NCBI GenBank assembly: GCA_001789205.1
Contig: MFYT01000108.1
Span: 1-27,863 of the forward strand
DNA from: Candidatus Raymondbacteria bacterium RIFOXYA2_FULL_49_16
GTDB taxonomy: Bacteria; Fibrobacterota; OXYB2-FULL-49-7; XYB2-FULL-49-35
Length of the DNA stretch: 27,863 nucleotides
Reading direction: 5' to 3'
The stretch's first letter is position 1. Every line of letters starts with the position of its first letter. Made by a program: the position numbers and the translations under genes. Below, piece after piece: positions 8,132-25,678 of this stretch. The notes under the pieces were generated by a model. It ran no database searches and was not told where the DNA came from. It saw nothing but the letters and a program-made list of their open reading frames with translations.

Positions 8132-8347
8132 ATGAAAAATAAAAAGGACACCATTATTCAGTTGGACGCCCTTTTGGAAGAACATAAAACTATACATCCC
8201 TTAAACAGAAGGACCACTAAATATTATGAAAATCTTCTTACTGTTCCTGACATTTTCATCACTGGTTTTTGCGCAGAACTATACCAGCGATTCGCTTATT
8301 GTGCAGGCACTGCTCGATTCCAACGGGTGGAACAGCTTCACTGTTGA
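8132..8347 (+). pseudogene. Truncated copy of the 64-aa small protein
   Basis: The first 22 codons (MKNKKDTIIQLDALLEEHKTI) match the intact small protein at 21309-21503. A deletion of 138 bp then removes the rest of the gene, including its stop, and joins it to the ribosome-binding region of LRR A. The remaining frame therefore reads on, out of phase, across the LRR start at 8226 and stops at 8347. The tail is not related to any protein seen here. Upstream bases and start codon are kept, so it could still be translated and overlap LRR A initiation. Confidence 0.65.
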
Positions 8348-10583
8348 AGAAATAAGCGAGGTGAGCGGCAATAGAATTACCGGGCTCAATCTCAGGGGCG
8401 AATCCATCTATACCAGTGAAGAAGCGAGCGCAGGGGTATATTCCAGCTGGTTCTTTTACCGTTCCATTACCTGGCTGCCTGCGGAGATCGGCAACCTGAC
8501 AGCACTGGAAAAACTCGACCTTGGCGGCCACCAGCTGTCAAGCCTTCCCTCCACCATGGGCAATTTGGTCAATTTGAAGTATCTCTACCTTGATCCGGAG
8601 CACTTTTGGAACAATACAATACAGGCCCATATCAACGACAATAACGGCGATGTCTATTACGGCGACAGCTTGCGCCATAAATATTATTTTTGGAACGATA
8701 CCTTGCTGAGAACCTATGCCGCGAGCGGCAGAATGAATGACTTTGACAAACACCGGCTCGGATTCAAGCTATCCGCGCTTCCCGCCACATTTACAAACCT
8801 TGCCAATCTGGTTGAATTGGACATAAGCAACAATATCCTCGATTCCATACCCTCATATATAGGCAATCGTACGGGTATGACAAAACTCTGGGCAGCTGGG
8901 ATCGACCTGTCCCAGTTCCCTTCTCAGGCGTTAAACCTGGTGAATTTGGAACTTCTTGACCTGGGCAGGAATATTATTACCACGGTGCCATCCGGAATCA
9001 GCGCATTGACCAAGCTGAAGTCGCTCAACCTGAGCGGTAATGAGATTGCGAGCCTTCCGGAAACCATGGGAAACCTTACCGCGTTGTCCGATCTGCTCGA
9101 CGTTTCAATAAACGAACTTACCTCGCTGCCCCAGGCAATAGGCAATTTCACCCTGCTCAAACGGCTCAATATTGACCACAACATGATTGCCGCGCTGCCG
9201 ACTTCCATTGGCAATTGCGCAAGCCTCACGCGGCTCGATGCGGAGGTGAATTGTATTGCCAGCCTGCCATCCACTATTGGCGGTTTGGACATGCTCGACA
9301 CCCTCTATCTCGAGTGGAACAACCTTGCCTGCCTGCCCCCGGAGATCGGCGGCCTGGCAAAGATCAAGAACCTCCAGGTAATGCACAACAATCTCACCAG
9401 TCTGCCGGATGAATTCTGCAACCTGGCCACACTGGCCGAACTCCGCATCGACCACAACCAACTGGCTTCGCTCCCGGATGCGTTCGGCATGCTTTTCAAC
9501 CTTGTGGTTCTTGAGGCGACGAACAACAAACTGACAACAATGCCCGCCTCGTGCGCAAGCATGAGCCTCCTGAACAGGGTCTATCTTTCAAACAATCTGA
9601 TCACCTCCCTGCCGGCAAGGGTCGGGTCCCGCCCCAGCGACCTTCAGCTCAACAATAATCTATTGACCTCCCTGCCTGCCACTCTCACCGCGTCAAAGTT
9701 GTCCATGCGCAACAACAAGCTCACCAGCCTTTCCGGGGCCATTTTGAAGTCCTCGCTGGGCTTTCTCGATGTTTCCTTCAACGAACTGACCGCGCTTCCC
9801 GATTCAATCTCCCGTGCCACCAATTTGGGGGAGTTTCACGCTGCCGGCAACAGGATTACCGCCATCCCCGCCCCGTTCCTGAATTTGACCAACCTGTCGA
9901 CCGTTGACTTTCATCACAACGAACTGACCGAGCTTCCGGACAGCATTGGATACAAAATGACCAGATTGACATTCCTCGATGTGCGCGGAAACAGCCTCTC
10001 CACGCTTCCAGCCTCTCTGGGAAAACTGACCAACTCCTATATGGAAGTATATGCCGACTCAAACCGCATTAGCTGGCTCCCCGACTCACTGATTGCCTGG
10101 CGTCATGATATCTGGCTGTTTCTCAACTTCAACCATTTGACCGTTGCCGGGTTGCCCTCCAACATACGGTCCCAGACTTCAGTGTTTCAGATTAACTACA
10201 ATTGGCTATGTGATGCCGACCCCACCCTTGACTATTGGTTACGCGGGAGAACATCGAACTATCAGCAAACCCAAGACTGCAGCGGTACCAACATAACGGC
10301 CGCGCCTGGTGCAAACGTCCTGGTCAATACGCTTTCGCAAAACACGCCAAACCCGTTCAACCCATCCACCAGCATCACCTTCTCCATCACCTCGCCGCGC
10401 CATGTGTCTTTGCAAATCTATGATGTCAAAGGCGGGCTGGTGACCTCGCTGGTCAATGCTCCACGACAGGCAGGGCGCCACTCAGTGACCTGGGACGCCC
10501 GAGGCCTGGGTTCGGGCATCTACTACTACCGGCTTGTTGCCGGTGATTTCAAGGCAATAAAAAAATGCATCGTAATCAAATAA
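8226..10583 (+). CDS. Secreted leucine-rich-repeat protein A with sorting domain
   Basis: 785 aa; start supported by AGAAGGA about 12 bases upstream and an immediate signal peptide (MKIFLLFLTFSSLVFAQ). An N-terminal cap (DSLIVQALLDSNGWNSFTV) leads into about 20 or more 23-residue LRRs of the LPxxIGNLxxLxxLxLxxN type (about residues 80-650). A non-LRR island of about 57 residues (about 123-180, containing NDNNGDVYYGD) interrupts the early repeats. The last 80 residues are a FlgD-like sorting domain (NTPNPFNPSTS ... GSGIYYYRLVAGDFKAIKK). Such proteins usually serve in protein or glycan binding at the cell surface; the ligand is unknown. The stop is 14 bp from the start of hydrolase A, so the two are very probably co-transcribed and perhaps translationally coupled. 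Copy B at 21540 has the same length. Confidence 0.88.
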   Translation: MKIFLLFLTFSSLVFAQNYTSDSLIVQALLDSNGWNSFTVEEISEVSGNRITGLNLRGESIYTSEEASAGVYSSWFFYRSITWLPAEIGNLTALEKLDLGGHQLSSLPSTMGNLVNLKYLYLDPEHFWNNTIQAHINDNNGDVYYGDSLRHKYYFWNDTLLRTYAASGRMNDFDKHRLGFKLSALPATFTNLANLVELDISNNILDSIPSYIGNRTGMTKLWAAGIDLSQFPSQALNLVNLELLDLGRNIITTVPSGISALTKLKSLNLSGNEIASLPETMGNLTALSDLLDVSINELTSLPQAIGNFTLLKRLNIDHNMIAALPTSIGNCASLTRLDAEVNCIASLPSTIGGLDMLDTLYLEWNNLACLPPEIGGLAKIKNLQVMHNNLTSLPDEFCNLATLAELRIDHNQLASLPDAFGMLFNLVVLEATNNKLTTMPASCASMSLLNRVYLSNNLITSLPARVGSRPSDLQLNNNLLTSLPATLTASKLSMRNNKLTSLSGAILKSSLGFLDVSFNELTALPDSISRATNLGEFHAAGNRITAIPAPFLNLTNLSTVDFHHNELTELPDSIGYKMTRLTFLDVRGNSLSTLPASLGKLTNSYMEVYADSNRISWLPDSLIAWRHDIWLFLNFNHLTVAGLPSNIRSQTSVFQINYNWLCDADPTLDYWLRGRTSNYQQTQDCSGTNITAAPGANVLVNTLSQNTPNPFNPSTSITFSITSPRHVSLQIYDVKGGLVTSLVNAPRQAGRHSVTWDARGLGSGIYYYRLVAGDFKAIKKCIVIK

Positions 10584-10597
10584 CCATGAGGTCTACC

Positions 10598-12379
10598 ATG
10601 AATACAATGAAAACCCCTGTCATCGTCAGCTTGTTAGTTGTACTTTTTGTTGTCGGAATATCGCTGGTTCCGGTGCAGGCTGAAAACCTGACCATTCCCC
10701 AGACGCTCATAACCAAGATGGACACCGCGGTCCCCCGATACCTTTCAGACACCCTTTGGAAGGAATTGGCATACGAATATACGCCCAGAATTAACCTGCT
10801 CGACAGCAACGATCTTCTTGTGCAGAAATACCTTCCGCGTCTGCAAGAAAAGATCCTGATCGTCTACCAATCTTTCAATAACGCTGATAGATATAATTCA
10901 AAACTATACCATTACCGGGCGGCCACCGAACTATCATCGAATTTCGAACTCTATGTGCATGCGCTGGAACACGGTGTTGACCCGGTGTTGTATCTTCGCG
11001 GTTCTTATATTGGCGGCGCGTACATTTCGCGCGCGGGTAATTATGTGGTCCCCTATCAATTCTCCATACCCGCTTCGTATTCGCCTTCACAGGCCATGCC
11101 GATTGTAGGGTGCTACCAATCCAATCCCGATCCAGCCACAGTGTCGCATTCGTCGTATATTTTCGCATGGGGGCTGGAAGACCCAAAAGAGGGCTTCATG
11201 GACATAGCAAAAGACCTGCATGTAGACCCCTTCGGGACCTACCTTGCTTCACATTCGGACGGCGCTCTCGCCGCGGCAAGAATAGTCGCCAATATTCCCC
11301 ACGGCTGCGCCGGATATGTGCCGCTCTCTTCCGGTATCCGGGAGCCCATCAGGTACGATACCTGGCAGTATGTCCGGTACCTGCAGAATGTCCCTGTCCT
11401 GGTCATGTGCGGAACAGGCGACCCCTTTATCGCGAACAATCAGGCGGTGTATCAAGAGATATCAGCGGCAGGCGGCATTGTTGAATGGCGTTCGTGGGTC
11501 GGCTATCATGAACAGAGCGTTCTGGCTGAACCAGAAAGATTCCAGATTATGACTGATTTCTTCGATAAGTACCGTCTTTATCCCTATCCTCAGACCGTGA
11601 CCCACCTTATTGAAAACATAAAATTTACACGCGCCTTCTGGGTCAACGGGCTCTTAAACAAGAATTATACTGCAACAAACGACCTCTTTATGCTCGGTGT
11701 TTCGTTCAAGATCACGGCGCACAAAGCAGCGAACACTATTGAGATAGAGTATGCGGATGACCATATATCAGGATTTGATTTTCTCCTGAACGATTCCATC
11801 GTTTCCGATATCACCCAGCCGGTCAAAGTGGTGTACGGTAGCGACACGCTTTTTAACGCCATTGTTCCCGTAAGCGGCACGCTCACGGTACATCTGTATG
11901 ATTCCAGCTCAATCCCCGCCTCATTGCCTCCCCAGCACAAGGCAGCAGGGTATTTTTCAAACATGGAGGACACGCTGTTGTGGGAAGAGCTCAATACAAT
12001 TGAACAGAACTATTTTGGTGTAACCACGCCCATGCCGTTCGAGTTACCCGCCCCTCAGACCAGCGTTGAAACGGATAATATCGATCACCAGGTTTTTGCC
12101 ATTACCGCGGGACCAAACCCGTTTAATCCGGCTATTAAAATAGCGGTTAGCGGGCAGGTCGCGGGCAGCGAAAAAATCGAAATCAACATTTATAATATAC
12201 GTGGAAAACTGGTCCAAAAACTGCCGGCTACCAGCTGCTCGCCTCGCATCGCGGGCGAAACAGGCCAGCCACCCGCTGGTTTTATATGGGATGCTGGGAA
12301 AATGCCTTCAGGGACCTACATTATCAGGGCAGTCAAAGGGAAACAGGCCATAACCAAACAGATTACATTACTCAAATAG
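10598..12379 (+). CDS. Secreted alpha/beta-hydrolase A (esterase/depolymerase-like) with sorting domain
   Basis: The ATG at 10598 follows TGAGGT and gives 593 aa; the earlier ATG at 10565 overlaps the LRR stop. A signal peptide ends near VPVQA. The alpha/beta-hydrolase domain (about residues 150-320) resembles the PHB-depolymerase/prolyl-oligopeptidase-like esterases. The proposed nucleophile is Ser220 in SHSDGA, where GxSxG would be usual; Asp275 (CGTGDPF) and His304 (GYHEQS) complete the proposed triad. A beta-rich region follows (ISGFDFLLNDSI), then a sorting domain (GPNPFNPAIKIAVS ... PSGTYIIRAVKGKQAI). The middle of that domain resembles hydrolase C more than copy B. The substrate is not deducible; an extracellular ester is the likely class. 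Confidence 0.8.
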   Translation: MNTMKTPVIVSLLVVLFVVGISLVPVQAENLTIPQTLITKMDTAVPRYLSDTLWKELAYEYTPRINLLDSNDLLVQKYLPRLQEKILIVYQSFNNADRYNSKLYHYRAATELSSNFELYVHALEHGVDPVLYLRGSYIGGAYISRAGNYVVPYQFSIPASYSPSQAMPIVGCYQSNPDPATVSHSSYIFAWGLEDPKEGFMDIAKDLHVDPFGTYLASHSDGALAAARIVANIPHGCAGYVPLSSGIREPIRYDTWQYVRYLQNVPVLVMCGTGDPFIANNQAVYQEISAAGGIVEWRSWVGYHEQSVLAEPERFQIMTDFFDKYRLYPYPQTVTHLIENIKFTRAFWVNGLLNKNYTATNDLFMLGVSFKITAHKAANTIEIEYADDHISGFDFLLNDSIVSDITQPVKVVYGSDTLFNAIVPVSGTLTVHLYDSSSIPASLPPQHKAAGYFSNMEDTLLWEELNTIEQNYFGVTTPMPFELPAPQTSVETDNIDHQVFAITAGPNPFNPAIKIAVSGQVAGSEKIEINIYNIRGKLVQKLPATSCSPRIAGETGQPPAGFIWDAGKMPSGTYIIRAVKGKQAITKQITLLK

Positions 12380-12399
12380 TATTAAAAAAGGGGTCTATC

Positions 12400-15090
12400 A
12401 TGCTAAATATTTTTACAGTACTCGTTGTGCTGATGGCGTTGCTTGCCCAGGCAAACGGCGCCATCAGGCTGAAGCACCACTATGGCCAGACCTTTGTGGT
12501 CTTTCCCCGCGGCACTGACACAACCGACTCGTTTAGAATCTACCGGTCAGCGGGAACCATTGACGCGGGCAACTATGCGGCCGCAACCCTGCTCGCGAGT
12601 CTGCCCTATGCCTGTTATTTTAACCTCTGCATGGTTAAACAGTATGTGGCAAAACCCATCACCAACTATGTCATTGATTCAATGGGCGTACCGCTTGCCG
12701 CTGACACTGGACTCTTTGTCAATACATCAAAGGACATTGGTACGTTCTACTACGGTGTTGTACGCGTCTCCACGGGCGCGGACAGCTTTCTCGGGTCAGC
12801 GTCGATAGCCGAACAGAAAAACGCGATCACTGTTCCCATTTTTGTTGACCTCAAGCTGAGCAGCGGAAAGGTCGTGGGCGCCTATCTTCTGCAATATGTT
12901 GATTTTTCCATATGGAACCCGCGCTGGCAGAGTTATGCCTATCCCTACAGCCTGGTAATACCAAGCGACTACTACGATGTGTCCGGCAATCCCGATGCGA
13001 CAAAAAAGTGGCGTTTTTCCATGAGCATGCACGGTCTTTCCGCGGGTACTGCCTATAACCAGCTGACTGGCCCTGGAAACGCCGGGTATCTTGAACTGCG
13101 TTGTGTTGATGATGCAAGCGATGGCCGCAGCACCTGGCACTACGGATTCTCAAACAAAAACAGCGCCACAGGCGGCGCTTCTATAGCGCCCGGCGACACT
13201 GTCTACAACTATACCCAATACCGCTACCTGAAAATGCTTGAGTACATACGTTCGGGCATCCACTGGCTTGTTCCGGATTCAAACAATATATACGTCTTTG
13301 GCGGGTCCATGGGCGGCACAGGCTGCATAGAAATGATGTTCCAATACCCGGACATCTTTGCAGCCGGTTACAACAGCATCGGTATTACCAACTGGCGGTC
13401 CGTGGGCGATTCGGGCGGTGCCAATTATCGCGACCTTGCAGGCCGAAGGCTCTGGGGAGAGTTTGCGTCAAACCAGATCTGCTGGGTCGATATGTACCGC
13501 AGGGAAAAAGGAGACACCGCGATACCCGCATATTGGCATGGGTCCAACATCTGGAAACGGCTTTCGATGAACGACTATTGGATCGACAGCGTGTACCGGC
13601 CAAACCTTGTTGAAAAAACGCAGACGCTCTATTACCGGGCCAAGCACAATTCCAATGATATGAACGTGGGCTGGCCAGAGAACGGCTATCCCTTCAATCT
13701 TGAAAATTCTCCGTTATGGGAAGGCCTGCTCCACCACGCGGAGTTCAATGAATTCGGCGGCCATAATTCAGCTGACGGATGGGGTGTGGTCACGGACGGC
13801 GATATCTATGCTAAAAATAAGGCCATTTTTGCCATGCACAATTGCACTGTGGACGAAATACAGGCAAGCAGGGACTACCGCTTTCCCAAGGGCGGCATGA
13901 ACTATCGCGTGAAATGGGACGCGAACACCATTGCGGACGCGGCTGAGTCGCTGCACGTACAGATCAGGTACGTACCTGTAATGTATCCCTTTGAATTTTA
14001 CTGCCTGCCTGATGCCCAGAACAACACAACCAACCAATGTCCGTATCAGGGCTTTCCCGGCGTGTTTGCGGTCGACATTACCCCGCGCCGCGTACAGAAC
14101 TTTTCCGTCACTCCGGGAAACCAATACCACTGGTACCGCAACGGCGTTGAAATGGGCACGGTCACCGCCAAGGCGGTTTGGCCCGGCTCTCCCGACGGCA
14201 TCGTAACCATACCCAATTATGACTTCCATCAGGGATCTGCCTCGTGCACAAATACAGCGACACTCACTACGCTCACGATTAAGGCAGGGGCAGGTTCCAT
14301 ACCCGAAGATATTGTTGCGCCAGGGCCTGTCACTGGTCTTGAGCTGGTTTCAAACGAACCAACGACTGAATTTTATGGTCTGGGAAGATACTGGGCTGAC
14401 AACAATTTCATCTCAGTTGTAAAAAGGGACTTTAACAACATTACCCTGCGTTTTGTCGCTCCCGGCGACGACGGCAGCACAGGTACCTGCACACGGTATA
14501 TCCTGAGAATAGCGGGCAATGAGGGCGATGTGGCGACAAGCCCTGTTATTGTACGCACGCTTCCTGCGCCCGCTGCCGCAGACCAGAGTGTTGAGTTCAC
14601 CTTTGGCACCTATTTTCTTGCAAGCGGCACGTATTACATGGCTGTTGAGGCATATGATGAGAACAATAACAGTTCGGGCATATCCAATGTGATCAGCACA
14701 TCGGTCACGTTCAGCAACAATGGCGGGTCTTTCAATGTTCATAAGGACAGTATCGATTCTCTTTTTGCAACACTCGGTGTGTCCGGCCGCATGGTGAATT
14801 TTGAGGAATTGTCACCTCTGCTTGGCGTGCGGCCAAACCCGTTCAATCCGGACCTGACCATCAATTTCAGCGTGCCTTCGGCTGTTGCGGCAAGGGACAT
14901 TTCACTTTCAATATTCAATAGCCTTGGCAAACGCGTCAGGACATACAATGGTCTGGCAGCCGGCCAGCGCGGCCATATTGTATGGAACGGCATTGACGCG
15001 TCAGGACATAAGGTAGCTTCGGGCGCGTATGTGGTGCGGCTGAAGGCAGGCACGTATGTGCTCGAACGTACTGTGACACTCATGAAATAA
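12400..15090 (+). CDS. Large secreted multidomain alpha/beta-hydrolase with FN3 and sorting domain
   Basis: The start is set at 12400 after AAAAAGGGG, 20 bp beyond hydrolase A, giving 896 aa with signal peptide MLNIFTVLVVLMALLAQANG. A beta-rich N-terminal region (about 20-170) precedes an alpha/beta-hydrolase domain (about 180-480) with nucleophile elbow GGSMGG (Ser303) and preceding SMHGLSAGT. A possible catalytic His lies in GGHNSADGW (about 454). Residues 494-896 parallel the left-edge gene: a beta domain (NQYHWYRNGVEMG), FN3 (about 640-770) and a sorting domain (VRPNPFNPDLTINFS ... TLMK). It is likely a surface carbohydrate or polyester esterase of the PHB-depolymerase-like superfamily. 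It sits between hydrolase A and LRR C in one gene string. Confidence 0.82.
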   Translation: MLNIFTVLVVLMALLAQANGAIRLKHHYGQTFVVFPRGTDTTDSFRIYRSAGTIDAGNYAAATLLASLPYACYFNLCMVKQYVAKPITNYVIDSMGVPLAADTGLFVNTSKDIGTFYYGVVRVSTGADSFLGSASIAEQKNAITVPIFVDLKLSSGKVVGAYLLQYVDFSIWNPRWQSYAYPYSLVIPSDYYDVSGNPDATKKWRFSMSMHGLSAGTAYNQLTGPGNAGYLELRCVDDASDGRSTWHYGFSNKNSATGGASIAPGDTVYNYTQYRYLKMLEYIRSGIHWLVPDSNNIYVFGGSMGGTGCIEMMFQYPDIFAAGYNSIGITNWRSVGDSGGANYRDLAGRRLWGEFASNQICWVDMYRREKGDTAIPAYWHGSNIWKRLSMNDYWIDSVYRPNLVEKTQTLYYRAKHNSNDMNVGWPENGYPFNLENSPLWEGLLHHAEFNEFGGHNSADGWGVVTDGDIYAKNKAIFAMHNCTVDEIQASRDYRFPKGGMNYRVKWDANTIADAAESLHVQIRYVPVMYPFEFYCLPDAQNNTTNQCPYQGFPGVFAVDITPRRVQNFSVTPGNQYHWYRNGVEMGTVTAKAVWPGSPDGIVTIPNYDFHQGSASCTNTATLTTLTIKAGAGSIPEDIVAPGPVTGLELVSNEPTTEFYGLGRYWADNNFISVVKRDFNNITLRFVAPGDDGSTGTCTRYILRIAGNEGDVATSPVIVRTLPAPAAADQSVEFTFGTYFLASGTYYMAVEAYDENNNSSGISNVISTSVTFSNNGGSFNVHKDSIDSLFATLGVSGRMVNFEELSPLLGVRPNPFNPDLTINFSVPSAVAARDISLSIFNSLGKRVRTYNGLAAGQRGHIVWNGIDASGHKVASGAYVVRLKAGTYVLERTVTLMK

Positions 15091-15128
15091 AAAAAGGACA
15101 CGCGGTCTTTATTGAAAGGAAAAATAGT

Positions 15129-16994
15129 ATGAAAACCATTGCCGCAATCCTCCTGTATGCCTCGCTTCTTTTTAGCCAGACCTATTCCGATGATTCGCTT
15201 ATCGTCAGAGGCATACTTGATTCTAATGCCTTGCCGTTCATCACAGTCAGCAGTGTCACGGTGGCGTCCGGGGGCAGGATAACATCCCTGCACGTGGAAC
15301 CCTTTTTGGGAGTGCGAGGCCGCTACTTTTATTTAGAAACCCTGCCCGCGTCAGTCTCCAATCTGACGGCGCTCGAGACGCTGTACGTGGCAAGTAACAG
15401 TTTGACAAGTCTGCCGCCTTCTATTGGCAGTCTGAGCAATCTGCGCACGCTTAAAGCAGGCAGCAATCAGATGTCCTCGCTGCCCGAGGAAATGGGTAAT
15501 CTGGGCAATCTTGAGGTCCTTGATGTCAGCAACAATATCCTTACCTCATTGCCAGCCTCCATCGGCAGGCTGGGCAACCTGACGTCTCTCAACCTTGCCA
15601 CAAACCTGCTTACGGTGTTCCCTGATTCCCTTGGCCGGCTGACCGGCCTAACATTTCTTGACGCGAGTTACAACCGTCTGACCGGGGTGCCGATGATCGG
15701 GCATTTGCGGAACCTGATCTACCTGAACCTCTCGTACAACCAGATAGCTGCGCTTCCCGAGGCAATCGGCAACTGCGACAGCCTGCACAAGCTGTTCCTT
15801 CAGCACAACAGTCTGACCAGTCTTCCGCTCGGTATCGGGAATCTCGGGGTTTTGTACGAATTTCAGGCCTCGTTCAACCAGCTTTCAGCTGTTCCTGACA
15901 CGCTTGGCAACATAGCCAGTAAAATGAGAACCGTTCATCGCTATGACTGGTGGTCGTACCCGACGCTGCTGTATCTGGACCACAATCAGCTTACTTCGGT
16001 CCCCGCATCGCTTGGAAAAATTTCCGCCCTTCGGGGTCTCAGACTCAACCACAACCTTATCACAAGCCTGCCCGGGGCAATTGTAAATCAGACTGGCAAC
16101 AGCAACCTGATATTCGAACTGCAGCACAATCAGCTGACAAGCCTGCCCGATTCCATGGGGGGCAGCTTCTTTTATTTCTGGATCCAGGACAACCAGCTGA
16201 CCACCTTGCCGCCGTCGATCGGCAGGTGCGGTTTCTATGATTTTTTCGCGTTCAACAATCAGATCGCAAGCTTGCCCGATTCATTCGGCAACATGTCGGT
16301 CCATGCGCTCTATCTCCAGCAGAACAGGCTCAGTGATCTGCCAGAATCTTTCGGCAATATACGGGCAGGAACAATAGATCTGAGCAATAATCTGCTGACA
16401 AGCCTTCCGCAATCAACGGGGAACCTGGTTCATACAGGTTACCTGTATCTTACGGGCAACAGGCTGACAAGCCTTCCGGATACAATCTGCGGCCTGGATA
16501 CCTTGAAGTGGTTCCGGGTTGACTACAATCAACTCACCGACCTGCCGGACAGTATCACAAAACTGACGCTGAGCAGTCCCATGTCCTCTTTTGACTGCAA
16601 TATGCTATGTGATATCACTCCTGCCAAAACACTATGGCTCAATTCCATTGATGATAAATGGGGCCGGACATGGAGCCAGACCCAGGACTGCGGTGTTACC
16701 CATGCTGAACAGGATGCGGCGCGCGGCGTTCCGGAGTTCGCGCTGCTCCAAAACACGCCCAACCCTTTCAATCCGGTCACATCCATGGGCTTTACGCTTC
16801 CCGCGCCCATGCACGTGAAATTGGAAGTGTTTTCGATAGATGGCACTCTTGTCGATGTGCTGATTGACGCGCAAAGAGCGGCCGGACATCATTTGACCTC
16901 GTGGGATGCGCGAACTCTTCATTCAGGGGTGTATTATTACCGGCTTTCCTCTGGAAAATACACAGCTGTGAAGAAGTGTCTTTTGGTTAAATAA
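15129..16994 (+). CDS. Secreted leucine-rich-repeat protein C with sorting domain
   Basis: 621 aa, start after GAAAGGAAAAATAGT, with signal peptide MKTIAAILLYASLLFSQ. The N-terminal cap (DDSLIVRGILDSNALPFITV) is like that of LRR A and B. About 18 LRRs of the LPxSIGxLxNLxxLxLxxN type follow (about residues 65-520), with a short interruption (about 262-280, MRTVHRYDWWSYPT). The tail from about 540 is a FlgD-like sorting domain (NTPNPFNPVTSMGF ... SGVYYYRLSSGKYTAVKK). It is a distinct, shorter paralogue lacking the N-terminal island of A and B. It lies 38 bp after the large hydrolase and 22 bp before hydrolase C, repeating the LRR-then-hydrolase order. Confidence 0.87.
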   Translation: MKTIAAILLYASLLFSQTYSDDSLIVRGILDSNALPFITVSSVTVASGGRITSLHVEPFLGVRGRYFYLETLPASVSNLTALETLYVASNSLTSLPPSIGSLSNLRTLKAGSNQMSSLPEEMGNLGNLEVLDVSNNILTSLPASIGRLGNLTSLNLATNLLTVFPDSLGRLTGLTFLDASYNRLTGVPMIGHLRNLIYLNLSYNQIAALPEAIGNCDSLHKLFLQHNSLTSLPLGIGNLGVLYEFQASFNQLSAVPDTLGNIASKMRTVHRYDWWSYPTLLYLDHNQLTSVPASLGKISALRGLRLNHNLITSLPGAIVNQTGNSNLIFELQHNQLTSLPDSMGGSFFYFWIQDNQLTTLPPSIGRCGFYDFFAFNNQIASLPDSFGNMSVHALYLQQNRLSDLPESFGNIRAGTIDLSNNLLTSLPQSTGNLVHTGYLYLTGNRLTSLPDTICGLDTLKWFRVDYNQLTDLPDSITKLTLSSPMSSFDCNMLCDITPAKTLWLNSIDDKWGRTWSQTQDCGVTHAEQDAARGVPEFALLQNTPNPFNPVTSMGFTLPAPMHVKLEVFSIDGTLVDVLIDAQRAAGHHLTSWDARTLHSGVYYYRLSSGKYTAVKKCLLVK

Positions 16995-17016: not shown

Positions 17017-18486
17017 ATGAAATCCAGCACCTGCTATGTCCCAGCGCTTTGCCTGATGATCATGTCAACCGTCTTCGCGGTTCTTGTATCCGCGGCGCCG
17101 ACCCCTCCGCCTGCGGGAAGCGTCACCGATAGGACCTATACCGCGCACGGCCAGGTTCATACCTACAAGGTAACCGTCCCGTATTGTTTTGATCCGTCAA
17201 AATCATGGCCGCTCATCAGCGCCAACCAGATGCAGTCCGAGTTTCTCACGGATTACTGTAAAGTAGCGCTTCAGGTTCCGTACATTACACTGCCCAACTG
17301 CTACAACGACATGGAGGACATACTTGATATCGCAAAGGACATCAACATAGACCCATACCGTGTATATCAGACCGGTTTTTCGCAAGGCGGTCACATCTCC
17401 CTGCAGTCAGCATGGCAGTATCCGCATAATTTCGCGGCAGTCGTACCCAGTTCGCCCGACCTGCGTCTGCCCAACCAGTGGTTTTATTTCAATAACATCC
17501 AACAGCTGCGGAATGTGCCGGTGCGCATTGTCCAGGGCGACATGGACGATTATATAGACGGCACGCTGCAAGTGTATGAAACCATGCTTGCCGCAAGTTG
17601 CCCGGTCGAGATGATGACCTTCCATGCCGGACACAGCTATATGCTTTTTACCGCGCTTCCGGAGTTCAACCGCTATATCCGGACCTTTTTTGACGCCAAT
17701 GTGCTTGATCCTTTTCCAAAGACCGTGTACCATTGCATTGAATTCTGCCAGGCCGCATCGTATTCACGCGCGTTCTGGGTCAATGGCAAATTGGCAAAGT
17801 CCTATCCCGGCGGACTGTTCGGCGTGAATCCCGTGTTTCAGGTGACGGCCGACTCCGCGAATAATCTCATAACCATTGACAGCGCTGATCCCATGATCTC
17901 AGGTTTTGATTTTTACCTCGACAGCCACTTAGTCGACATCACCAAGCCGGTGAACGTGGTCAAAGGCGGCCAGAGTATATTTCTTGGCGCCATACCGCCG
18001 GATGGCAAAGTGCCGGTCACCCTTTATACCACATACGTTGAGCCGCCCTCGGGATCGTCAAAGGGCGGCTCCTATCCGGCGCAGTATGTGTGCAACAGCG
18101 AAGAAAAGGTACTGTGGCAAAAACTGGACTCCATCAGATGCGCTGTGTTCGGTGTATGCAACCAGCCGCCCATTGCCACGGAAGCGTCTAATAAAGGGCG
18201 GAATAACGGTCTGGCACTAAGCGTTTTCCCAAACCCGTTCAATCCACGGACGCGGATAGCGGTCAGTCCGCCGTATGACGGACAAGCAGCGGGCTGCGAA
18301 AAGGTACTATTTGAGATATATAACCTGCACGGCAAGCTTGTTCAGAAGCTACTAACTGCCGGTGGTTCCGCTGATGAGCGAACAGGCATCACCTGGGATG
18401 CTTCGGGTCTTCCGAGCGGTGTGTATGTCATACGGGCTCTTGCGGGAAACGCTACCGTGTCGCGTACGGTAACATTCTTGCAATGA
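17017..18486 (+). CDS. Secreted alpha/beta-hydrolase C (PHB-depolymerase-like esterase) with sorting domain
   Basis: 489 aa, preceded by a strong TTGAGGAGG ribosome-binding site. Signal peptide MKSSTCYVPALCLMIMSTVF ends near VSAAP. The hydrolase domain (about residues 35-225) has a canonical nucleophile elbow GFSQGG (Ser122), an Asp in VQGDMDDY (about 175) and His206 in FHAGHSYM. This is the layout of the PHB-depolymerase/feruloyl-esterase-like group. A beta-rich module shared with hydrolases A and B follows (ISGFDFYLDSHLVDITKPVNVV), then a sorting domain (FPNPFNPRTRIAVS ... PSGVYVIRALAG). It is shorter than A and B because it lacks their roughly 100-residue N-terminal segment. Last gene of the central string. 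Confidence 0.83.
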   Translation: MKSSTCYVPALCLMIMSTVFAVLVSAAPTPPPAGSVTDRTYTAHGQVHTYKVTVPYCFDPSKSWPLISANQMQSEFLTDYCKVALQVPYITLPNCYNDMEDILDIAKDINIDPYRVYQTGFSQGGHISLQSAWQYPHNFAAVVPSSPDLRLPNQWFYFNNIQQLRNVPVRIVQGDMDDYIDGTLQVYETMLAASCPVEMMTFHAGHSYMLFTALPEFNRYIRTFFDANVLDPFPKTVYHCIEFCQAASYSRAFWVNGKLAKSYPGGLFGVNPVFQVTADSANNLITIDSADPMISGFDFYLDSHLVDITKPVNVVKGGQSIFLGAIPPDGKVPVTLYTTYVEPPSGSSKGGSYPAQYVCNSEEKVLWQKLDSIRCAVFGVCNQPPIATEASNKGRNNGLALSVFPNPFNPRTRIAVSPPYDGQAAGCEKVLFEIYNLHGKLVQKLLTAGGSADERTGITWDASGLPSGVYVIRALAGNATVSRTVTFLQ

Positions 18487-18529
18487 TCCAACTTAGTATT
18501 CAATAAATTTCCGTGTCTGCCAAAAGCGG

Positions 18530-21034
18530 TCATTGCCCTGTCTGCCGGAAATACACCGTGCGGCCCAAACGCTGTTTAACTATCTTTCCCTGCCCGCACA
18601 ATACGCCAAGATATTTCCACCCCGTCACCTTCGAGATATTCAACCTGTCAACAAACTCCTGCATGGAAAAATCGTTCTTCTGAAACGAGGCGATCACTTC
18701 GTCTATTTTTTCATCCAGAGGCGCGATCAGCCCATGGCAAGCCATGTACCGTTTTATGGTATTGTAGGAACACCCGAAATAGACAGCCATTTTATGCGGT
18801 TTTCCGTGTAACTCGTTATATATGGATAGGAACGCGTCCTTGTCGCGGTATGTTTTCTTTTCCGCACCGCTCCCTGCAATCCTTTCCCGGCCCTTTTGCA
18901 GGGCAATGGCATCCCTGGTCTCTGCCGCGGTTTCGGGAATAGCCATGTTTTTTTTCATGAACATGGGAAAATGGTCGGGAGTCAGGATGCCTTCGCGGTG
19001 CACAACCAGCGCGTTCTCAATGGCGTTCTTCAACTCGCGCACATTGCCGGGCCAGCTATAATTCATGAGCGCGGGAAACACCATGTTGCTGATGGCGGGG
19101 ATTGGGACATCATTCTGGCTGGCAAGAGTGGCGATCAGATGATTCACAATGGGATAAATATCCATCAGCCGTTCGCGCAGCGGCGGCATATGGATGCCCA
19201 CCACCTTGATCCGGTAATACAGGTCCGGTCTGAACCGTCCCTGCGCGACCGCCTCCTCAAGGTCGGCGTTCGTCGCTGAAACAATGCGCACGTCGACCTT
19301 CAGTGTTGTCTTGCCGCCGATCCGCTCGAATTGGTGGTCCTGCAGAAAACGGAGCAGCTTGGTTTGTATCTCAACGGTCAGGTTGCCGATCTCATCGAGA
19401 AACACGGTGCCGCGGTGGGCAAGTTCGAACTTGCCAATCTGCCTGCGGTCCGCGCCAGTAAAAGCGCCTTTTTCGTACCCGAACAGCTCGCTTTCGATGA
19501 GCGTTGGCGGCAGCGACGCGCAATCGATTTTCACAAAGGGCCCCTTACGGCCGCTTTCCAGATGGATCGCCTTGGCAACAAGGTCCTTGCCCGTGCCTGT
19601 CTCGCCGGTGATCAGGACCGAGGCGCCCGACGACGCCACGGTCTTGATGGTGCTGATGATATTCTCGATTGCCGGGGAACTGCCGATAAATCCGTAGAAG
19701 CCTTTTTCCGTGTTCGCCAGCCGTATCAGCGCCCTGTCCCGCTCTTTTTTGTATGCTGCCATGCGCTCCTCTGCCCGCGCGACTTCACTCAGTTCGCGCA
19801 TCAGGAGCATGTTCTTAATGGTGTTTATGAAAAAGCCCGGCATAATCTGCATTTCATAGTAATTTTTTTCATCGTTTTTAAAGCGTACCAGCCTTCGGAA
19901 TTCTTTCATCTTATCATAATCATAGACGCTTGGCCTTGTCCGGATGACAAGCGATAAATAGGTTTCGTCCTGATCCGTAATTAGGCCGAACCGGTTAAGG
20001 GCCTGGTAATCGCTGTAGAACGGGATCTCGTCTATATGGCGCACCTCCTCTTGGCCATTGACGGAAACAGTAACCACCGGCCCGGTTTTAATAATCACGA
20101 CATCGCGGGCCTCTTCCCGGATGCTCCCGAAATTTACCGCGTTGGCGTTCCTTTTAATGATCGCCATGTTCTCATGAAAATGCACCAGGTATCCGTTTTC
20201 ATCGGGCGTAAGAAAGGGATTGTCAATGCCGCACATGAAGACGCCCCCGGCTCCATCTGACACGCGGTATTCTATGCGGTAATCCATATGAAAGAAGTCA
20301 AATGATTGCGAAGACATAAGAAAATTTACGTTTAAGACCGGATCCAGCTGCGCAAGGCGCACGCTGTTCCTTTGTATGTTCCATGAGCGGTTCGGCGCGC
20401 TGAAAAGCTGCGGAAACCCATGCTTTTGAGAATCGAACGCCAGTTCCCATCGCGCATCATTTTTCCCTTCCGATTCAAGAACGTATTCAAGAAAGGCCTT
20501 TCGCGTCTTTTCCCACTCCTGAAAATCAGCCCCGATCAGGCATTCCTTCAGGGCTGTACCCCGAAACCGCCTGTCCCCGAACATAGTAAGGAGTTTATAA
20601 TAGAGCCTGACACCAAAATCCTCGAAATGCAGCGTGCTGTCCAGCACTGCGAACAGCTCCTTCTCGTAATGCTGGTGTATCCGTTCAATGCCGAAAAGTT
20701 GCAGATTGATGGACCAGACGGAAAAATCACCATACTGTTGCATGCGCCTGATCAATGCATGAATACCCTCTTTACGCGACCGTTCCACGATGTTCATGGT
20801 AAGGCCGGGCCCGGGCATTATGCGGCAGCGTATACCCGTCTCGGTCTCTTCAATGATATCCAGAAGGGACCTGAAAGGCTTTTGGATAAGCTCATCAGGC
20901 GCATACCCGAACATCCGGGTAAAACTCTGGGAAATCCAGAGTATCCTTGATTCCAGATCGACCGCAAACAATGCCTGGTGCGAGTCATTGAGCAAAGGCT
21001 TGAGAGGTGTGTTTACAAACTCTTCAATATTCAT
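18530..21034 (-). CDS. Sigma-54-dependent transcriptional activator with PAS and probable concanavalin-like sensor
   Basis: The ATG at 21034 gives 834 aa; extension to a TTG at 21067 would run into a REP-like repeat. No strong Shine-Dalgarno is seen. A PAS-like domain occupies about residues 15-60 (ALFAVDLESRILWISQSFT). The region about 230-370 looks like a LamG/DUF1080-type beta-sandwich (VVIIKTGPVVTVSVNGQEE). A charged helical linker (about 405-445) precedes an AAA+ domain with Walker A GETGTGKD (about 477), the sigma-54 loop GAFTGA (523-528), Walker B VFLDEI (about 544) and FRPDLYYRI. Two HTH segments follow (HKMAVYFGCSYNTIKRYM and FSMQEFVDRLNISKVTGWKYL); a single Fis-type HTH is usual. 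It lies divergently beside module B, which suggests local control. There is no receiver domain, so it is probably triggered by ligand or protein binding. Confidence 0.88.
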   Translation of the reverse strand: MNIEEFVNTPLKPLLNDSHQALFAVDLESRILWISQSFTRMFGYAPDELIQKPFRSLLDIIEETETGIRCRIMPGPGLTMNIVERSRKEGIHALIRRMQQYGDFSVWSINLQLFGIERIHQHYEKELFAVLDSTLHFEDFGVRLYYKLLTMFGDRRFRGTALKECLIGADFQEWEKTRKAFLEYVLESEGKNDARWELAFDSQKHGFPQLFSAPNRSWNIQRNSVRLAQLDPVLNVNFLMSSQSFDFFHMDYRIEYRVSDGAGGVFMCGIDNPFLTPDENGYLVHFHENMAIIKRNANAVNFGSIREEARDVVIIKTGPVVTVSVNGQEEVRHIDEIPFYSDYQALNRFGLITDQDETYLSLVIRTRPSVYDYDKMKEFRRLVRFKNDEKNYYEMQIMPGFFINTIKNMLLMRELSEVARAEERMAAYKKERDRALIRLANTEKGFYGFIGSSPAIENIISTIKTVASSGASVLITGETGTGKDLVAKAIHLESGRKGPFVKIDCASLPPTLIESELFGYEKGAFTGADRRQIGKFELAHRGTVFLDEIGNLTVEIQTKLLRFLQDHQFERIGGKTTLKVDVRIVSATNADLEEAVAQGRFRPDLYYRIKVVGIHMPPLRERLMDIYPIVNHLIATLASQNDVPIPAISNMVFPALMNYSWPGNVRELKNAIENALVVHREGILTPDHFPMFMKKNMAIPETAAETRDAIALQKGRERIAGSGAEKKTYRDKDAFLSIYNELHGKPHKMAVYFGCSYNTIKRYMACHGLIAPLDEKIDEVIASFQKNDFSMQEFVDRLNISKVTGWKYLGVLCGQGKIVKQRLGRTVYFRQTGQ

Positions 21035-21056
21035 GTTTTTTATTTTAAATGAATAA

Positions 21057-21076
21057 CCCCGGAGCAAGCTCCGAGG
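21057..21076. repeat. REP-like palindromic repeat 1
   Basis: CCCCGGAGCAAGCTCCGAGG forms a 6-bp stem CGGAGC/GCTCCG with loop AA, extended by CC/GG across a mismatch, and is followed by TAT. It lies just upstream of the activator start codon and explains the spurious 5' extension of that frame. It shares AGCAAGCT and CGAGGTAT with repeat 2. Confidence 0.55.
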
Positions 21077-21103
21077 TATCGTGAAAAACCTGGAAATTTA
21101 GAA

Positions 21104-21119
21104 TCGCAGCAAGCTGCGA
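21104..21119. repeat. REP-like palindromic repeat 2
   Basis: TCGCAGCAAGCTGCGA is a perfect 7-bp stem with an AA loop, followed by GGTATTATACC. It has the same orientation and core as the repeat at 21057-21076, about 45 bp away. Such GC-rich hairpins are typical of REP sequences mobilised by Y1 (RAYT-type) transposases; no such transposase gene is in the window. Confidence 0.55.
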
Positions 21120-21122
21120 GGT

Positions 21123-21128
21123 ATTATA
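21123..21128 (-). promoter_or_regulatory. Possible -10 box for the activator gene
   Basis: On the minus strand this reads TATAAT, a perfect -10 hexamer; only a weak -35 (TTTATT) lies 17 bp upstream. It sits inside the 13-bp palindrome AGGTATTATACCT (21119-21131) that borders REP-like repeat 2. A transcript would begin near 21116 and carry the repeat-1 hairpin in its leader. Confidence 0.25.
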
Positions 21129-21229
21129 CCTGGACATACGAATAAAATAAAATATTATTAGATTAAATGTATATGTTTTTATTGTTAAATGTAATCTATT
21201 GTGTTTTAAAATAATAATATCATTCCCTT

Positions 21230-21248
21230 TTCTTGTTTAAAATCAGAA
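21230..21248. promoter_or_regulatory. 19-bp imperfect dyad upstream of module B
   Basis: TTCTTGTTTAAAATCAGAA is identical to 8054-8072 and lies the same distance from the sigma-54-like element as in copy A. It is in the divergent region next to the activator gene, so it is a candidate binding site for that activator or for a repressor. Confidence 0.5.
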
Positions 21249-21258
21249 TATTCAATAT

Positions 21259-21274
21259 GAGCATGCTTTTTGCA
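21259..21274 (+). promoter_or_regulatory. Possible sigma-54 (-24/-12) promoter, module B
   Basis: GAGCATGCTTTTTGCA keeps the -12 TTTGCA and the 10-bp spacing. As in copy A the -24 GG reads AG, which weakens the call. The predicted start is near 21285, 24 bases before the small gene. Confidence 0.4.
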
Positions 21275-21308
21275 TTGGATATGCTATACAAAAGGCTGTA
21301 ACAAAAAT

Positions 21309-21503
21309 ATGAAAAAAAACAACCACACCATTAACCAGCTGGACACCCTTTTAGAAGAATATAAAACCATATTCGAGGTCACTTCTCAAGCCACAGACAA
21401 AAACGCATATCTTAAAAACCAGAAAACGCTTGAAGAGCTTGGGGAAAAGATAAAGACCATGCAATTCAATGCAAGGCTTGGCTTAAAACCAGGGTTATTG
21501 TAG
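21309..21503 (+). CDS. 64-aa small protein of unknown function, leader gene of module B
   Basis: The ATG at 21309 is chosen because the module A copy begins at the equivalent position and the 13 codons upstream overlap the promoter element. The protein is short, charged and predicted mostly helical (INQLDTLLEEYKTIFEVTSQ ... LKNQKTLEELGEKIKTM). It has no signal peptide or membrane segment, so it should stay in the cytoplasm, unlike every other product of the module. It precedes LRR B by 36 bp. A truncated homologue is at 8132. Function unknown; a regulator or chaperone of the module is possible but unsupported. Confidence 0.6.
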   Translation: MKKNNHTINQLDTLLEEYKTIFEVTSQATDKNAYLKNQKTLEELGEKIKTMQFNARLGLKPGLL

Positions 21504-21539
21504 AAAAAATATCCCTTAAACAGGAGGATCACCAGTATT

Positions 21540-23897
21540 ATGAAAACCTTCTTATTGTTCCTGGCCTTTACCTCGCTGGTCTTTGCGCAAAACTATTCCA
21601 GCGACTCGCTTATTGTGCAGGCAATACTCGATTCAAATGGATGGAACAGCTTCACCGTACAGGAAGTAAGCGTCGTGAGCGGCAACAGAATCGTCGAACT
21701 CAAACTCAGGGGAGAGGCTATCTATTCCAGGGAACAAATAAGCAGCGGAGTGTATACCGGCTGGTTCTCCTACCGTTCCATTACCCGGTTGTCCGCGGAA
21801 ATTGGCAACCTTACAGCCCTGGAAAAACTCGACCTTGGCGGCCACCAGATGACCAGCCTTCCCTCCGCCATGGGTAATCTGGTCAATTTAAAATATCTCT
21901 ATCTTGATCCAGAACACTATTGGGACAATACAACAAAGGCCCATATACACGACGGCGATGGTGATGTTTTCTACGACGATAGTTTGCGCCATAAATACTA
22001 TTTTTGGAGCGATACCCTGCCGAAGCGCTACAGTACAACGGGCCGGATAAACGACTTTTCAAAATTTCGGATCGGAGCGAGGTTGTCTGCGCTCCCCTCT
22101 ACCTTTGTGAACCTTGCCAATCTGGTTGAACTGGACATAAGCAACAATGCCCTTGATTCTATACCTTCATATATAGGTAATCGCACTGACATGACGAAAT
22201 TTTGGGCAGCGTGCATTGGCCTGTTCCAATTCCCCCCTCTGGTGCTAAATTTGGTTAACCTGGAACTCCTGAACCTGAGCCGGAATTTTATTGCCACAGT
22301 GCCGTCCGGAATAAACGCGCTAACCAAGCTTACATCGCTCAACCTGAGTGGTAACGAGATTACCAGCCTTCCGGAAACCATGGGCGGCCTTACGGCGCTG
22401 TCCGATCTTCTCGATGTCTCGGTAAACGAAATTGCCTCGCTGCCCCAGGCAATAGGTAGTTATACCCTGCTCAAACGGCTTAATGTTGACCACAACCTGA
22501 TTACCTCACTGCCGTCCACTATTGGTAATTGCGCAAGACTTACACGGCTTGATGCGCAGGTGAACAGCATTGCCAGCCTGCCTTCCACCATCGGTGGTCT
22601 TGATATGCTCGACACCTTATTTCTCGAATGGAACAACCTTGCCAGCCTGCCCCTGGAGATAGGCGGCCTTGCAAAAATCAAAAACCTCCAGTTAATGCAC
22701 AATAATCTTACCAGCCTGCCGGCTGAATTCTGTAATCTGAGTACGCTGGCTGAGCTCTACATAAGTCACAATCAATTGACCGCGCTCCCAGACTCGTTTG
22801 GCAGACTCTCCAGCCTTACCATTCTTGAAGCGACGGACAATAAATTGACGGACATTCCCGCTTCGTGTGCCCGCCTTGGATATATGAAACGTGCCTATCT
22901 TTCAGACAATCTTCTTGCTTCCCTATCCTCAAAGATCGGTTCGCGTACCTACGACCTTCAGGTCAACAATAATCAGTTGACCTCCCTGTCGCCCGCCATC
23001 GACGCTGTCAAGCTATCAGTGCGCAATAACAAACTGACCAGCCTTCCTGGGTCCATCATGCTGTCATCGATGAACTTTCTCGATGTTTCCTTTAATGAAC
23101 TGACCACGCTTCCCGACTCCATCTCCTTTGCTGCAAATTTGACCGAATTTCATGGTGCGGCAAACAAGATTGCCAGCATTCCTTCCCCGTTCCTGAGTCT
23201 GACCAAGCTGGTAACACTGGATTTTCATCACAATGAGCTGACGGCACTTCCCGACAGTATTGGATACAAAATGACCAAATTGACGTTTTTTGATGTACGC
23301 GGGAATATGCTGACCACCCTTCCGGCTTCTCTTGGGAAACTGACGAACAACTACCTGAATATATATGCTGACTCGAACCATATTAGCTGGCTGCCCGATT
23401 CGCTGATAGCCTGGCGTCCAAACATCATGATGGAGATGTCCTTTAACCATTTGACTGTTGCCGGGTTGCCGGCCAATGTACGTTCCCTTACCTCAACATT
23501 TCATTTTAACTACAACCGGATATGCAATGCGGATGCAACCCTTGACTACTGGTTACGAGGAAAAACAAGTGGTTATCAGGTGACCCAGGACTGCAGCAGC
23601 ACCAACGTAACGGCCGTTTCCGGCTCGAATGCGCTGGTCAATATGCTTTCGCAGAACACGCCAAACCCTTTTAACCCATCCACAAGCATTAATTTCTCAA
23701 TTACATCGCCGCGCCATGTGACTTTGCAGATATATGATATCAAGGGCGGATTGGTAGCCTCGCTGGTCAATGCTTCCCAACAGGCAGGGCGCCATTCCGT
23801 GATCTGGGATGCGAGCGGCCTGGGTTCGGGCATCTACTACTACCGGCTTGTTGCCGGCGATTTCAAGGCAATAAAAAAATGCATCGTAATCAAATAA
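21540..23897 (+). CDS. Secreted leucine-rich-repeat protein B with sorting domain
   Basis: 785 aa, with a strong AGGAGG upstream and signal peptide MKTFLLFLAFTSLVFAQ. It is a full-length paralogue of LRR A: the same cap (DSLIVQAILDSNGWNSFTV), the same island at about residues 123-180 (HDGDGDVFYDDS), the same run of 23-residue LRRs and the same sorting tail (NTPNPFNPSTS ... GSGIYYYRLVAGDFKAIKK). Differences are scattered and include many exposed positions of the repeats. It is followed after 14 bp by hydrolase B, as in module A. A surface-binding role is inferred; the ligand is unknown. Confidence 0.88.
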   Translation: MKTFLLFLAFTSLVFAQNYSSDSLIVQAILDSNGWNSFTVQEVSVVSGNRIVELKLRGEAIYSREQISSGVYTGWFSYRSITRLSAEIGNLTALEKLDLGGHQMTSLPSAMGNLVNLKYLYLDPEHYWDNTTKAHIHDGDGDVFYDDSLRHKYYFWSDTLPKRYSTTGRINDFSKFRIGARLSALPSTFVNLANLVELDISNNALDSIPSYIGNRTDMTKFWAACIGLFQFPPLVLNLVNLELLNLSRNFIATVPSGINALTKLTSLNLSGNEITSLPETMGGLTALSDLLDVSVNEIASLPQAIGSYTLLKRLNVDHNLITSLPSTIGNCARLTRLDAQVNSIASLPSTIGGLDMLDTLFLEWNNLASLPLEIGGLAKIKNLQLMHNNLTSLPAEFCNLSTLAELYISHNQLTALPDSFGRLSSLTILEATDNKLTDIPASCARLGYMKRAYLSDNLLASLSSKIGSRTYDLQVNNNQLTSLSPAIDAVKLSVRNNKLTSLPGSIMLSSMNFLDVSFNELTTLPDSISFAANLTEFHGAANKIASIPSPFLSLTKLVTLDFHHNELTALPDSIGYKMTKLTFFDVRGNMLTTLPASLGKLTNNYLNIYADSNHISWLPDSLIAWRPNIMMEMSFNHLTVAGLPANVRSLTSTFHFNYNRICNADATLDYWLRGKTSGYQVTQDCSSTNVTAVSGSNALVNMLSQNTPNPFNPSTSINFSITSPRHVTLQIYDIKGGLVASLVNASQQAGRHSVIWDASGLGSGIYYYRLVAGDFKAIKKCIVIK

Positions 23898-23911
23898 TTG
23901 TGAGGTATACC

Positions 23912-25678
23912 ATGAATACAATAAAAAATCCGACCATCGTCAGCTTGTTTGTCGTTCTCTTTATCGCCGGGCTATCGCTGATTCCGGTGCAGGCCGAAAA
24001 CCTGACCATTCCGCAGACGCTTATAGCTAAAATGGACACAACAGTTCCTCGATACCCATCGGACACCCTCTGGAAGAAATTGGCATCAGAATATGCGTCC
24101 AGGATAAACCAGCTCGACAGCAGCAATCTTTTGGTGCAGAAAAACCTTCCACGGTTGCAGGAAAAGGTTCTGCTTATTTATAAATCCTTCAATAACATTG
24201 ACAGATATGGTTCAAATTTGTACCATTACATGGCTGCCACCAGTCTTTTACCGTATTTGGAATTATATGTGAGTGCATTGGAAAGAGGTGTTGACCCGGC
24301 GCGTTCATTTCCCGGCTCCCATATTGGCGGCGCGTTTATTTCGCCAAGCGGTAATTATACAGTAGGTTATCGGTACGCCATACCCGTTTCTTATTCGCCT
24401 TTAAAGGCCTTTCCGGCTGTTGTCTGTTTTCAATCCGAGCCGAATCCGGTGACAGTGTCGCATTCGTCTTATATTTTCGTATGGGCGCAAAGTGGAACCT
24501 CGAAAGAGACTTTTATGGACATTGCCAAGGACCTGCATATGGATCCGTTCGGTACATATATTGTTTCACATTCAGACGGCGCGCTCGGTGGGGTGCAAAA
24601 CGCCGCCCGTATCCCTCACAACTTCGCCGCATACGTGCCGCTCTCTTCCGGCATCAGGGAACCCATCAGGTTTGATACATGGCAATATATCCGGTACCTG
24701 CAAAACATCCCTGTCCTGATCATGTGCGGAACTACCGATCCTTTTATCGCAAACAACCAGGCGGTGTACCAGGAAATATCAGCGGCAGGCGGTATTGTTG
24801 AATGGCGTTCATGGGTCGGATATCATGAGCAAAGTGTTCTGTCTGAAGAAATAGAGTTTCAGATTATGACCGATTTTTTTGACAAGTACCGTTTATATCC
24901 ATATCCCCAGACTGTGACCCACCTTATTGACAACATCAAATATACGCGTGCTTATTGGGTGAACGCGCTTTTGAATAAGAATTATTCTGCATCAGGCACG
25001 GAACTTTATATGCTCGGTGTTTCGTTCAAGGTTACCGCACACAAAACCATAAATACCATCGAGGTAGAGTATGCAGATAACCATATATCCGGATTTGATT
25101 TTTTCCTTAACGATTCCCTTGTTTCAAACAAAAGCCAGCCGGTGAAAGTGGTGCGGGGCAGCGACACGCTTTTCAATGGCATCATTCCCGGCGACGGTAA
25201 ACTCACTGTCCACCTGTACGATGCCAGCTCGATACCCACTTCATTGCCTCCCATGCACCAGGCAGCAGGGTATTTTTCGAACATGGAGACCACGCTGTTA
25301 TGGGAAGGACTCAGCGCGATTGAACAAACCTATTTCGGCGCGACCACGCCGATCCCACGGGATGTACCTGCACAGCAGACCAGTGTTGAAGCGGATATTA
25401 TCAATGACCAGCAGCCGCTTGTGGTTACCGTGGGACCCAATCCATTCAATCCGGCAACTACTATTACCGTGAACCATGGCGGGGCTGTTACTGTGTCCCT
25501 CAAAATTTATACTATCAAAGGGGAGATGGTCAAAGACCTGACTCCGTCTTTCAGCAATACCGGATCTTCCGCGCATTCATGCGTATGGGATGCTGGGAAA
25601 ATGCCCTCAGGGACCTATATTGTCAGGGCTGTCAAAGGGAAACAGGCCATAACCAAACAGATTACGTTGCTCAAATAA
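23912..25678 (+). CDS. Secreted alpha/beta-hydrolase B (esterase-like) with sorting domain
   Basis: 588 aa from the ATG behind TGAGGT; signal peptide ends near IPVQA. It is a paralogue of hydrolase A with the same proposed triad: Ser221 in SHSDGA, Asp in CGTTDPF and His in GYHEQS. The last roughly 30 residues (DAGKMPSGTYIVRAVKGKQ ...) are almost identical to A. The preceding part of the sorting domain (GPNPFNPATTITVNHGGAVT) differs strongly, which suggests exchange of that piece in one copy. End of the module B unit; a GC-rich hairpin lies just downstream. Confidence 0.8.
   Translation: MNTIKNPTIVSLFVVLFIAGLSLIPVQAENLTIPQTLIAKMDTTVPRYPSDTLWKKLASEYASRINQLDSSNLLVQKNLPRLQEKVLLIYKSFNNIDRYGSNLYHYMAATSLLPYLELYVSALERGVDPARSFPGSHIGGAFISPSGNYTVGYRYAIPVSYSPLKAFPAVVCFQSEPNPVTVSHSSYIFVWAQSGTSKETFMDIAKDLHMDPFGTYIVSHSDGALGGVQNAARIPHNFAAYVPLSSGIREPIRFDTWQYIRYLQNIPVLIMCGTTDPFIANNQAVYQEISAAGGIVEWRSWVGYHEQSVLSEEIEFQIMTDFFDKYRLYPYPQTVTHLIDNIKYTRAYWVNALLNKNYSASGTELYMLGVSFKVTAHKTINTIEVEYADNHISGFDFFLNDSLVSNKSQPVKVVRGSDTLFNGIIPGDGKLTVHLYDASSIPTSLPPMHQAAGYFSNMETTLLWEGLSAIEQTYFGATTPIPRDVPAQQTSVEADIINDQQPLVVTVGPNPFNPATTITVNHGGAVTVSLKIYTIKGEMVKDLTPSFSNTGSSAHSCVWDAGKMPSGTYIVRAVKGKQAITKQITLLK

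Follow-up and report, generated by a model that had tools for sequence, protein, structure and literature searches.

The window analysed here, a stretch of 27,863 nt that corresponds to contig C108 of a Candidatus Raymondbacteria genome, contains three gene pairs in which a gene encoding a secreted leucine-rich-repeat (LRR) protein is directly followed by one encoding an α/β-hydrolase (HYD). Among the genomes listed, this one (5.43 Mb, 112 contigs) is the sole representative of its family. It contains 14 full-length genes of this hydrolase family, along with six for long LRR proteins of the paired family. Each of these six LRR genes lies immediately ahead of a hydrolase gene; three of the pairs are on C108, and contigs C17, C39, and C21 have one each. 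Our best reading, to which we assign a probability of about 0.5, is that these pairs are copies of a surface module, composed of an LRR protein and a CE1-like esterase, with a predicted function in polymer handling and a putative sigma-54 route of control. A two-gene module would have been multiplied within one bacterial lineage to give six copies, of which at least three would have a sigma-54-type promoter and, in divergent orientation, a sigma-54 activator gene upstream. Its LRR and HYD products would be exported by the Sec and type IX routes. The esterase would remove ester groups from an extracellular polysaccharide or another polymer, while the LRR protein would bind the polymer or another surface component and keep the esterase's substrate close.

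An ORF check confirmed the positions that a preliminary description had given for the three pairs, as well as their shared strand and short gaps (14, 22, and 14 nt in pairs 1, 2, and 3). The genes concerned are as follows.

8226-10583, + strand: LRR1, secreted leucine-rich-repeat protein of 785 aa with an NPFNP tail (ORF, Pfam, NCBIfam)
10598-12379, + strand: HYD1, α/β-hydrolase with a type IX-type tail and the nucleophile motif SHSDG (ORF, NCBIfam, alignment)
12400-15090, + strand: large α/β-hydrolase-type protein with a FlgD_ig tail, in the same gene run as pairs 1 and 2
15129-16994, + strand: LRR2, 621 aa, without the non-LRR insertion that the other LRR proteins contain
17017-18486, + strand: HYD2, α/β-hydrolase of 489 aa with the motif GFSQG, without the family's N-terminal helical region
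21540-23897, + strand: LRR3, 785 aa, with an NPFNP tail (ORF, Pfam, NCBIfam)
23912-25678, + strand: HYD3, α/β-hydrolase with a type IX-type tail (ORF, NCBIfam, alignment)

A purine-rich, Shine-Dalgarno-like stretch precedes each of the three hydrolase starts. The large hydrolase-type gene between pairs 1 and 2, which had previously been overlooked, is related to the HYD genes and has a paralogue at 3-1235, cut by the window start, whose product is 82% identical in the overlap. From the layout, pair 1, this large gene, and pair 2 probably form a single run of five genes, separated by 14, 20, 38, and 22 nt, downstream of a putative promoter at 8083, and pair 3 would be a second unit downstream of another at 21259. 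In pair 2 both partners are shorter, LRR2 having no insertion and HYD2 no N-terminal helical region. This joint shortening is only a hint that the partners may be interdependent, since it is one case and the unpaired hydrolases keep their N-terminal region.

As for the LRR proteins and the export of both partners, the first gene of each pair gives strong matches to LRR models (Pfam LRR_8/LRR_4, E values of 1e-31 to 1e-37). Matches to type III secretion effector families and internalins fall far below the cut-offs and reflect shared repeats only. The sorting tail that had been noted on all six proteins is recognized in each by the NCBIfam type IX tail model TIGR04183, whose cut-off is 23 bits, with HYD1 exactly at 23. 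The six N-termini, judged by eye, resemble Sec signal peptides, in line with the same description. Moreover, the genome encodes the type IX translocon protein SprA (TIGR04189, 588.6 bits summed, contig C61). Because the tails are of the type IX kind and SprA is encoded, surface display of the LRR and HYD proteins is likely.

The hydrolases had been described as PHB-depolymerase-like, which holds as a distant resemblance. However, the NCBIfam scores are far below the cut-offs for HYD2 (28.6 vs 150 bits for TIGR01840 and 21.3 vs 107.85 for NF050058), HYD1 and HYD3 give no match to either family, and other esterases are closer. A profile built from the 14 hydrolases has as its best match the C-terminal esterase of LC-Est1 (LC-Est1C; 3wyd), with an E value of 6e-16, followed by a PHB-depolymerase-family esterase and carboxylesterases. 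The catalytic part of HYD2 was modeled by AlphaFold with five aligned sequences (pLDDT 81.5; single-sequence pLDDT 34.5). When residues 5-203 of this model, the part covered by the fold comparison, were superposed on known structures, 3wyd was again the best match (Z 19.6, 172 residues, 2.4 Å), and many esterases and S9 peptidases, CE1 feruloyl esterases included, were found near Z 17. The shared α/β-hydrolase core, with Ser, Asp, and His at matching places, extends to the CE1 feruloyl/acetyl-xylan esterases 5vol, 1jt2, and 9j08. The catalytic columns are invariant in the alignment of all 14 hydrolases, and SHSDG replaces GxSxG in the enzymes of pairs 1 and 3 and of C17. Identity to LC-Est1C and the CE1 enzymes is ~20%, and, unlike these, the hydrolases here add a helical region at the N-terminus, a beta-rich stretch that follows the core, and a sorting tail. 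By homology and modeling, this is thus an α/β-hydrolase closest to LC-Est1C and CE1-type esterases. Genes for GH106, a SASA esterase, a BD-FAE/polysaccharide deacetylase, and a beta-helix protein lie near the hydrolase loci. Because of these carbohydrate genes and the CE1-like homology, the predicted activity is most likely de-esterification of an extracellular polysaccharide or another polymer.

The history of the pairs is written in their sequences. Pairs 1 and 3 are duplicates, with 76% (LRR) and 71% (HYD) protein identity and roughly 76-81% DNA identity in the listed repeat stretches, and they have in common 113 bp of upstream DNA (7986-8098 and 21162-21274, 83%). Since pairs 1 and 3 are near-duplicates down to this upstream DNA, the three pairs in the window do not count as independent cases of the pairing. 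To both of them, pair 2 is a diverged paralogue (about 33-41%). Genome-wide, the LRR and HYD trees split into the same two subfamilies, one formed by pair 1, pair 3, and C17 and the other by pair 2, C39, and C21, and the pairwise distances of the two proteins correlate across the six pairs with r = 0.985 (11 of 720 label permutations are as good). For both genes, dN/dS is about 0.15-0.25 in most comparisons with unsaturated dS, indicating purifying selection. Because there are six LRR-then-HYD pairs with matched distances and purifying selection, we consider that the two genes were duplicated, and have been retained, as a unit, and the simplest account would be one ancestral pairing copied as such at least five times. 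Within the group of pair 1, pair 3, and C17, the LRR and HYD trees are in weak conflict (support 65 and 82), so that these copies may have recombined with each other.

The earlier view that the constant pairing marks a functional unit is therefore supported within this genome, where six of six LRR genes are paired, distances co-vary, and both genes are under selection. However, it mostly fails as a general rule. Eight of the 14 hydrolases have no LRR neighbor (three on C15, two on C39, and one each on C57, C2, and C6), most of these adjoining other NPFNP-tailed genes, and two shorter LRR genes (C5 and C23) have no hydrolase neighbor. The phylum's 166 other genomes gave only short, weak matches to the esterase core and no full-length hydrolase. 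These relatives often encode secreted LRR proteins with the same DSLAVRAILD-type N-cap, and none of the 20 LRR loci inspected there has a hydrolase of the paired family as neighbor. At four loci in phylum relatives (L164, L174, L176, and L180), a secreted LRR gene lies beside genes that by eye resemble that of glycine cleavage T protein, a recurrent arrangement. When GTDB contigs were scanned with the six paired hydrolases, no relative emerged, and a scan with all 14, tails removed, found two homologues in Phycisphaerae, neither with an LRR neighbor or a tail; 397 genomes sampled from Phycisphaerae yielded none beyond these two at E ≤ 1e-20. The check proposed in the preliminary description thus speaks mostly against generality. 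Because the relatives have no full-length hydrolase, and neither their LRR loci nor the Phycisphaerae homologues are paired, the pairing appears, as far as can be seen, to be a feature of this lineage, so far confined to the one genome, rather than a general system. We found no description of an LRR-esterase pairing in the literature searched, which took in few subscription journals.

The preliminary description had also overlooked a putative control layer. In front of three pairs (pair 3 and those on C17 and C21) lie a divergent sigma-54 activator gene, a −24/−12-like site, and a small, conserved ORF. The elements in the window are as follows.

8083-8098, + strand: sigma-54 −24/−12-like site GAGCACGTTTTTTGCA upstream of pair 1 (agrees with the consensus at 10 of 12 positions; equalled by 2 of 1000 shuffles)
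8132-8227, + strand: decayed copy of the small ORF with its 3' two thirds deleted (50% identity over 35 aa to the ORF at 21309)
18530-21034, − strand: sigma-54 activator with PAS, a ~330-aa sensor region, AAA+ with GAFTGA, and a C-terminal region (Pfam Sigma54_activat, 7e-68)
21259-21274, + strand: sigma-54 −24/−12-like site GAGCATGCTTTTTGCA ahead of pair 3 (9 of 12 positions; 32 of 1000 shuffles as good)
21309-21503, + strand: conserved small ORF of 64 aa, no signal peptide seen, with homologues in the same place on C17 and C21

The activator is of the NtrC type by its AAA+ domain (PF00158), and its GAFTGA motif is invariant in six paralogues. Those adjoining the pairs on C17, C21, and C108 are 53-64% identical to each other; paralogues also occur on C23, C67, and C74. 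Its ~330-aa sensor region matches no Pfam or PDB profile, and an initial guess that it might be a ConA/LamG-like lectin was dropped since neither profile search supports it. The genome encodes about seven near full-length activators with this region, which the rest of the phylum almost entirely lacks. The site GAGCACGTTTTTTGCA falls inside the upstream stretch repeated ahead of pair 3, and the place of the pair 3 site is conserved on C17 and C21. At five loci (pair 3, C17, C21, a C23 locus, and pair 1), such a site is found 43-60 nt upstream of the small ORF, the best matches being equalled by 1-32 of 1000 shuffles; two are weak (17 and 32). The genome encodes RpoN. From the divergent arrangement and these sites, we infer sigma-54 control of the LRR-HYD operon.

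The small ORF between activator and LRR gene encodes 58-64 aa at the pairs and 53-64 aa overall and has no convincing Pfam match; its homologues are L061:5567-5743 on C17, L064:6394-6573 on C21, and others on C67, C74, and C23. Its product might partner the activator in a feedback loop. Several small-ORF copies lie behind sigma-54-like sites, and in five of seven cases they are on the activator's side. On C17, two ORFs of 595 and 171 aa (L061:3087-5389) with no Pfam match lie between activator and small ORF, and in the window two short palindromic elements resembling REP-type repeats, with AGCAAGCT cores and then CGAGGTAT, occupy 21056-21130 between activator and pair 3. The combination of activator and small ORF is also present on C67 and C74, upstream of other surface genes, which means that the cassette is not exclusive to the LRR-HYD pair. 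Pairs 1 and 2 and the C39 pair have no adjacent activator.

Could the pairs be mere neighbors? In a cargo-rich region, they might have been copied together by segmental duplication without any joint function, which would fit the upstream DNA common to pairs 1 and 3, the duplication of the adjoining large hydrolase, and the NPFNP-tailed neighbors of most unpaired hydrolases; one ancestral pairing explains all six. We consider passive linkage of this sort rather unlikely, however, since the pair is intact across two subfamilies (about 32-42% identity) and four contigs with differing surrounding genes, and purifying selection persists on both partners. It is likewise doubtful that the LRR protein works by itself as an adhesin for cells or surfaces, next to a hydrolase with a separate task, the two sharing a promoter because the same habitat calls for both. 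Such a division agrees with the wide occurrence in the phylum of secreted LRR proteins with the same N-cap and no paired hydrolase, and with hydrolases that occur without an LRR, yet leaves unexplained why each long LRR gene of the family precedes a hydrolase. As for the enzyme, fold neighbors that include prolyl tripeptidyl and dipeptidyl peptidases (Z 16-19), together with Abhydrolase_2 and distant PHA-depolymerase matches, would suit a peptidase or a lipid/polyester hydrolase. We nevertheless find this improbable, because LC-Est1C is the top match in both sequence and fold, thermostable and CE1-type esterases come next, and carbohydrate genes are close by.

We therefore retain the reading of a multiplied surface module with a polymer-directed esterase, against which count the three pairs with no adjacent activator, the broken small ORF in pair 1, and the two weak promoter matches. 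In this module, the most natural role for the LRR protein would be to concentrate activity by binding polymer or enzyme. That it positions the esterase, as originally suggested, is plausible, even if the esterase does not need an LRR neighbor, as eight of 14 hydrolases and both Phycisphaerae homologues are unpaired. A dedicated two-protein surface machine seems a long shot. The LRR protein would dock or target its partner esterase, paralogous pairs would differ in specificity, and some sets would be under a sigma-54 activator whose sensor region is new, together with a small regulatory protein. If the LRR protein does target the esterase, it would represent a new strategy, alongside carbohydrate-binding modules and SusD-like proteins, by which a bacterium with type IX secretion directs an enzyme to a polymer, and the six natural paralogous pairs would serve as a ready set for partner-specificity tests.

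Among known systems, polymer-degrading surface proteins exported by type IX include Fibrobacter cellulases with TIGR04183 tails (PMC6851124) and Paraporphyromonas cellulases (PMC5831590). The LRR-HYD pairs resemble these in their apparent signal peptides, TIGR04183-type tails, hydrolytic enzymes predicted at the envelope, and SprA in the genome. They differ in that an LRR protein is co-encoded with an esterase, the pair is multiplied, and it includes no glycoside hydrolase. The polysaccharide utilization loci of Bacteroidota are regulated clusters that combine a surface binding protein with degrading enzymes, and the pairs here likewise join a putative surface binding protein and an enzyme in a putatively regulated cluster. 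The window proteins scanned have no Pfam match to SusC/SusD. Unlike in those loci, control here looks to be of the sigma-54 type rather than through HTCS or ECF/anti-sigma systems, and the cassette of activator, promoter, and small ORF thus suggests a way of controlling surface-enzyme operons that differs from that of Bacteroidota.
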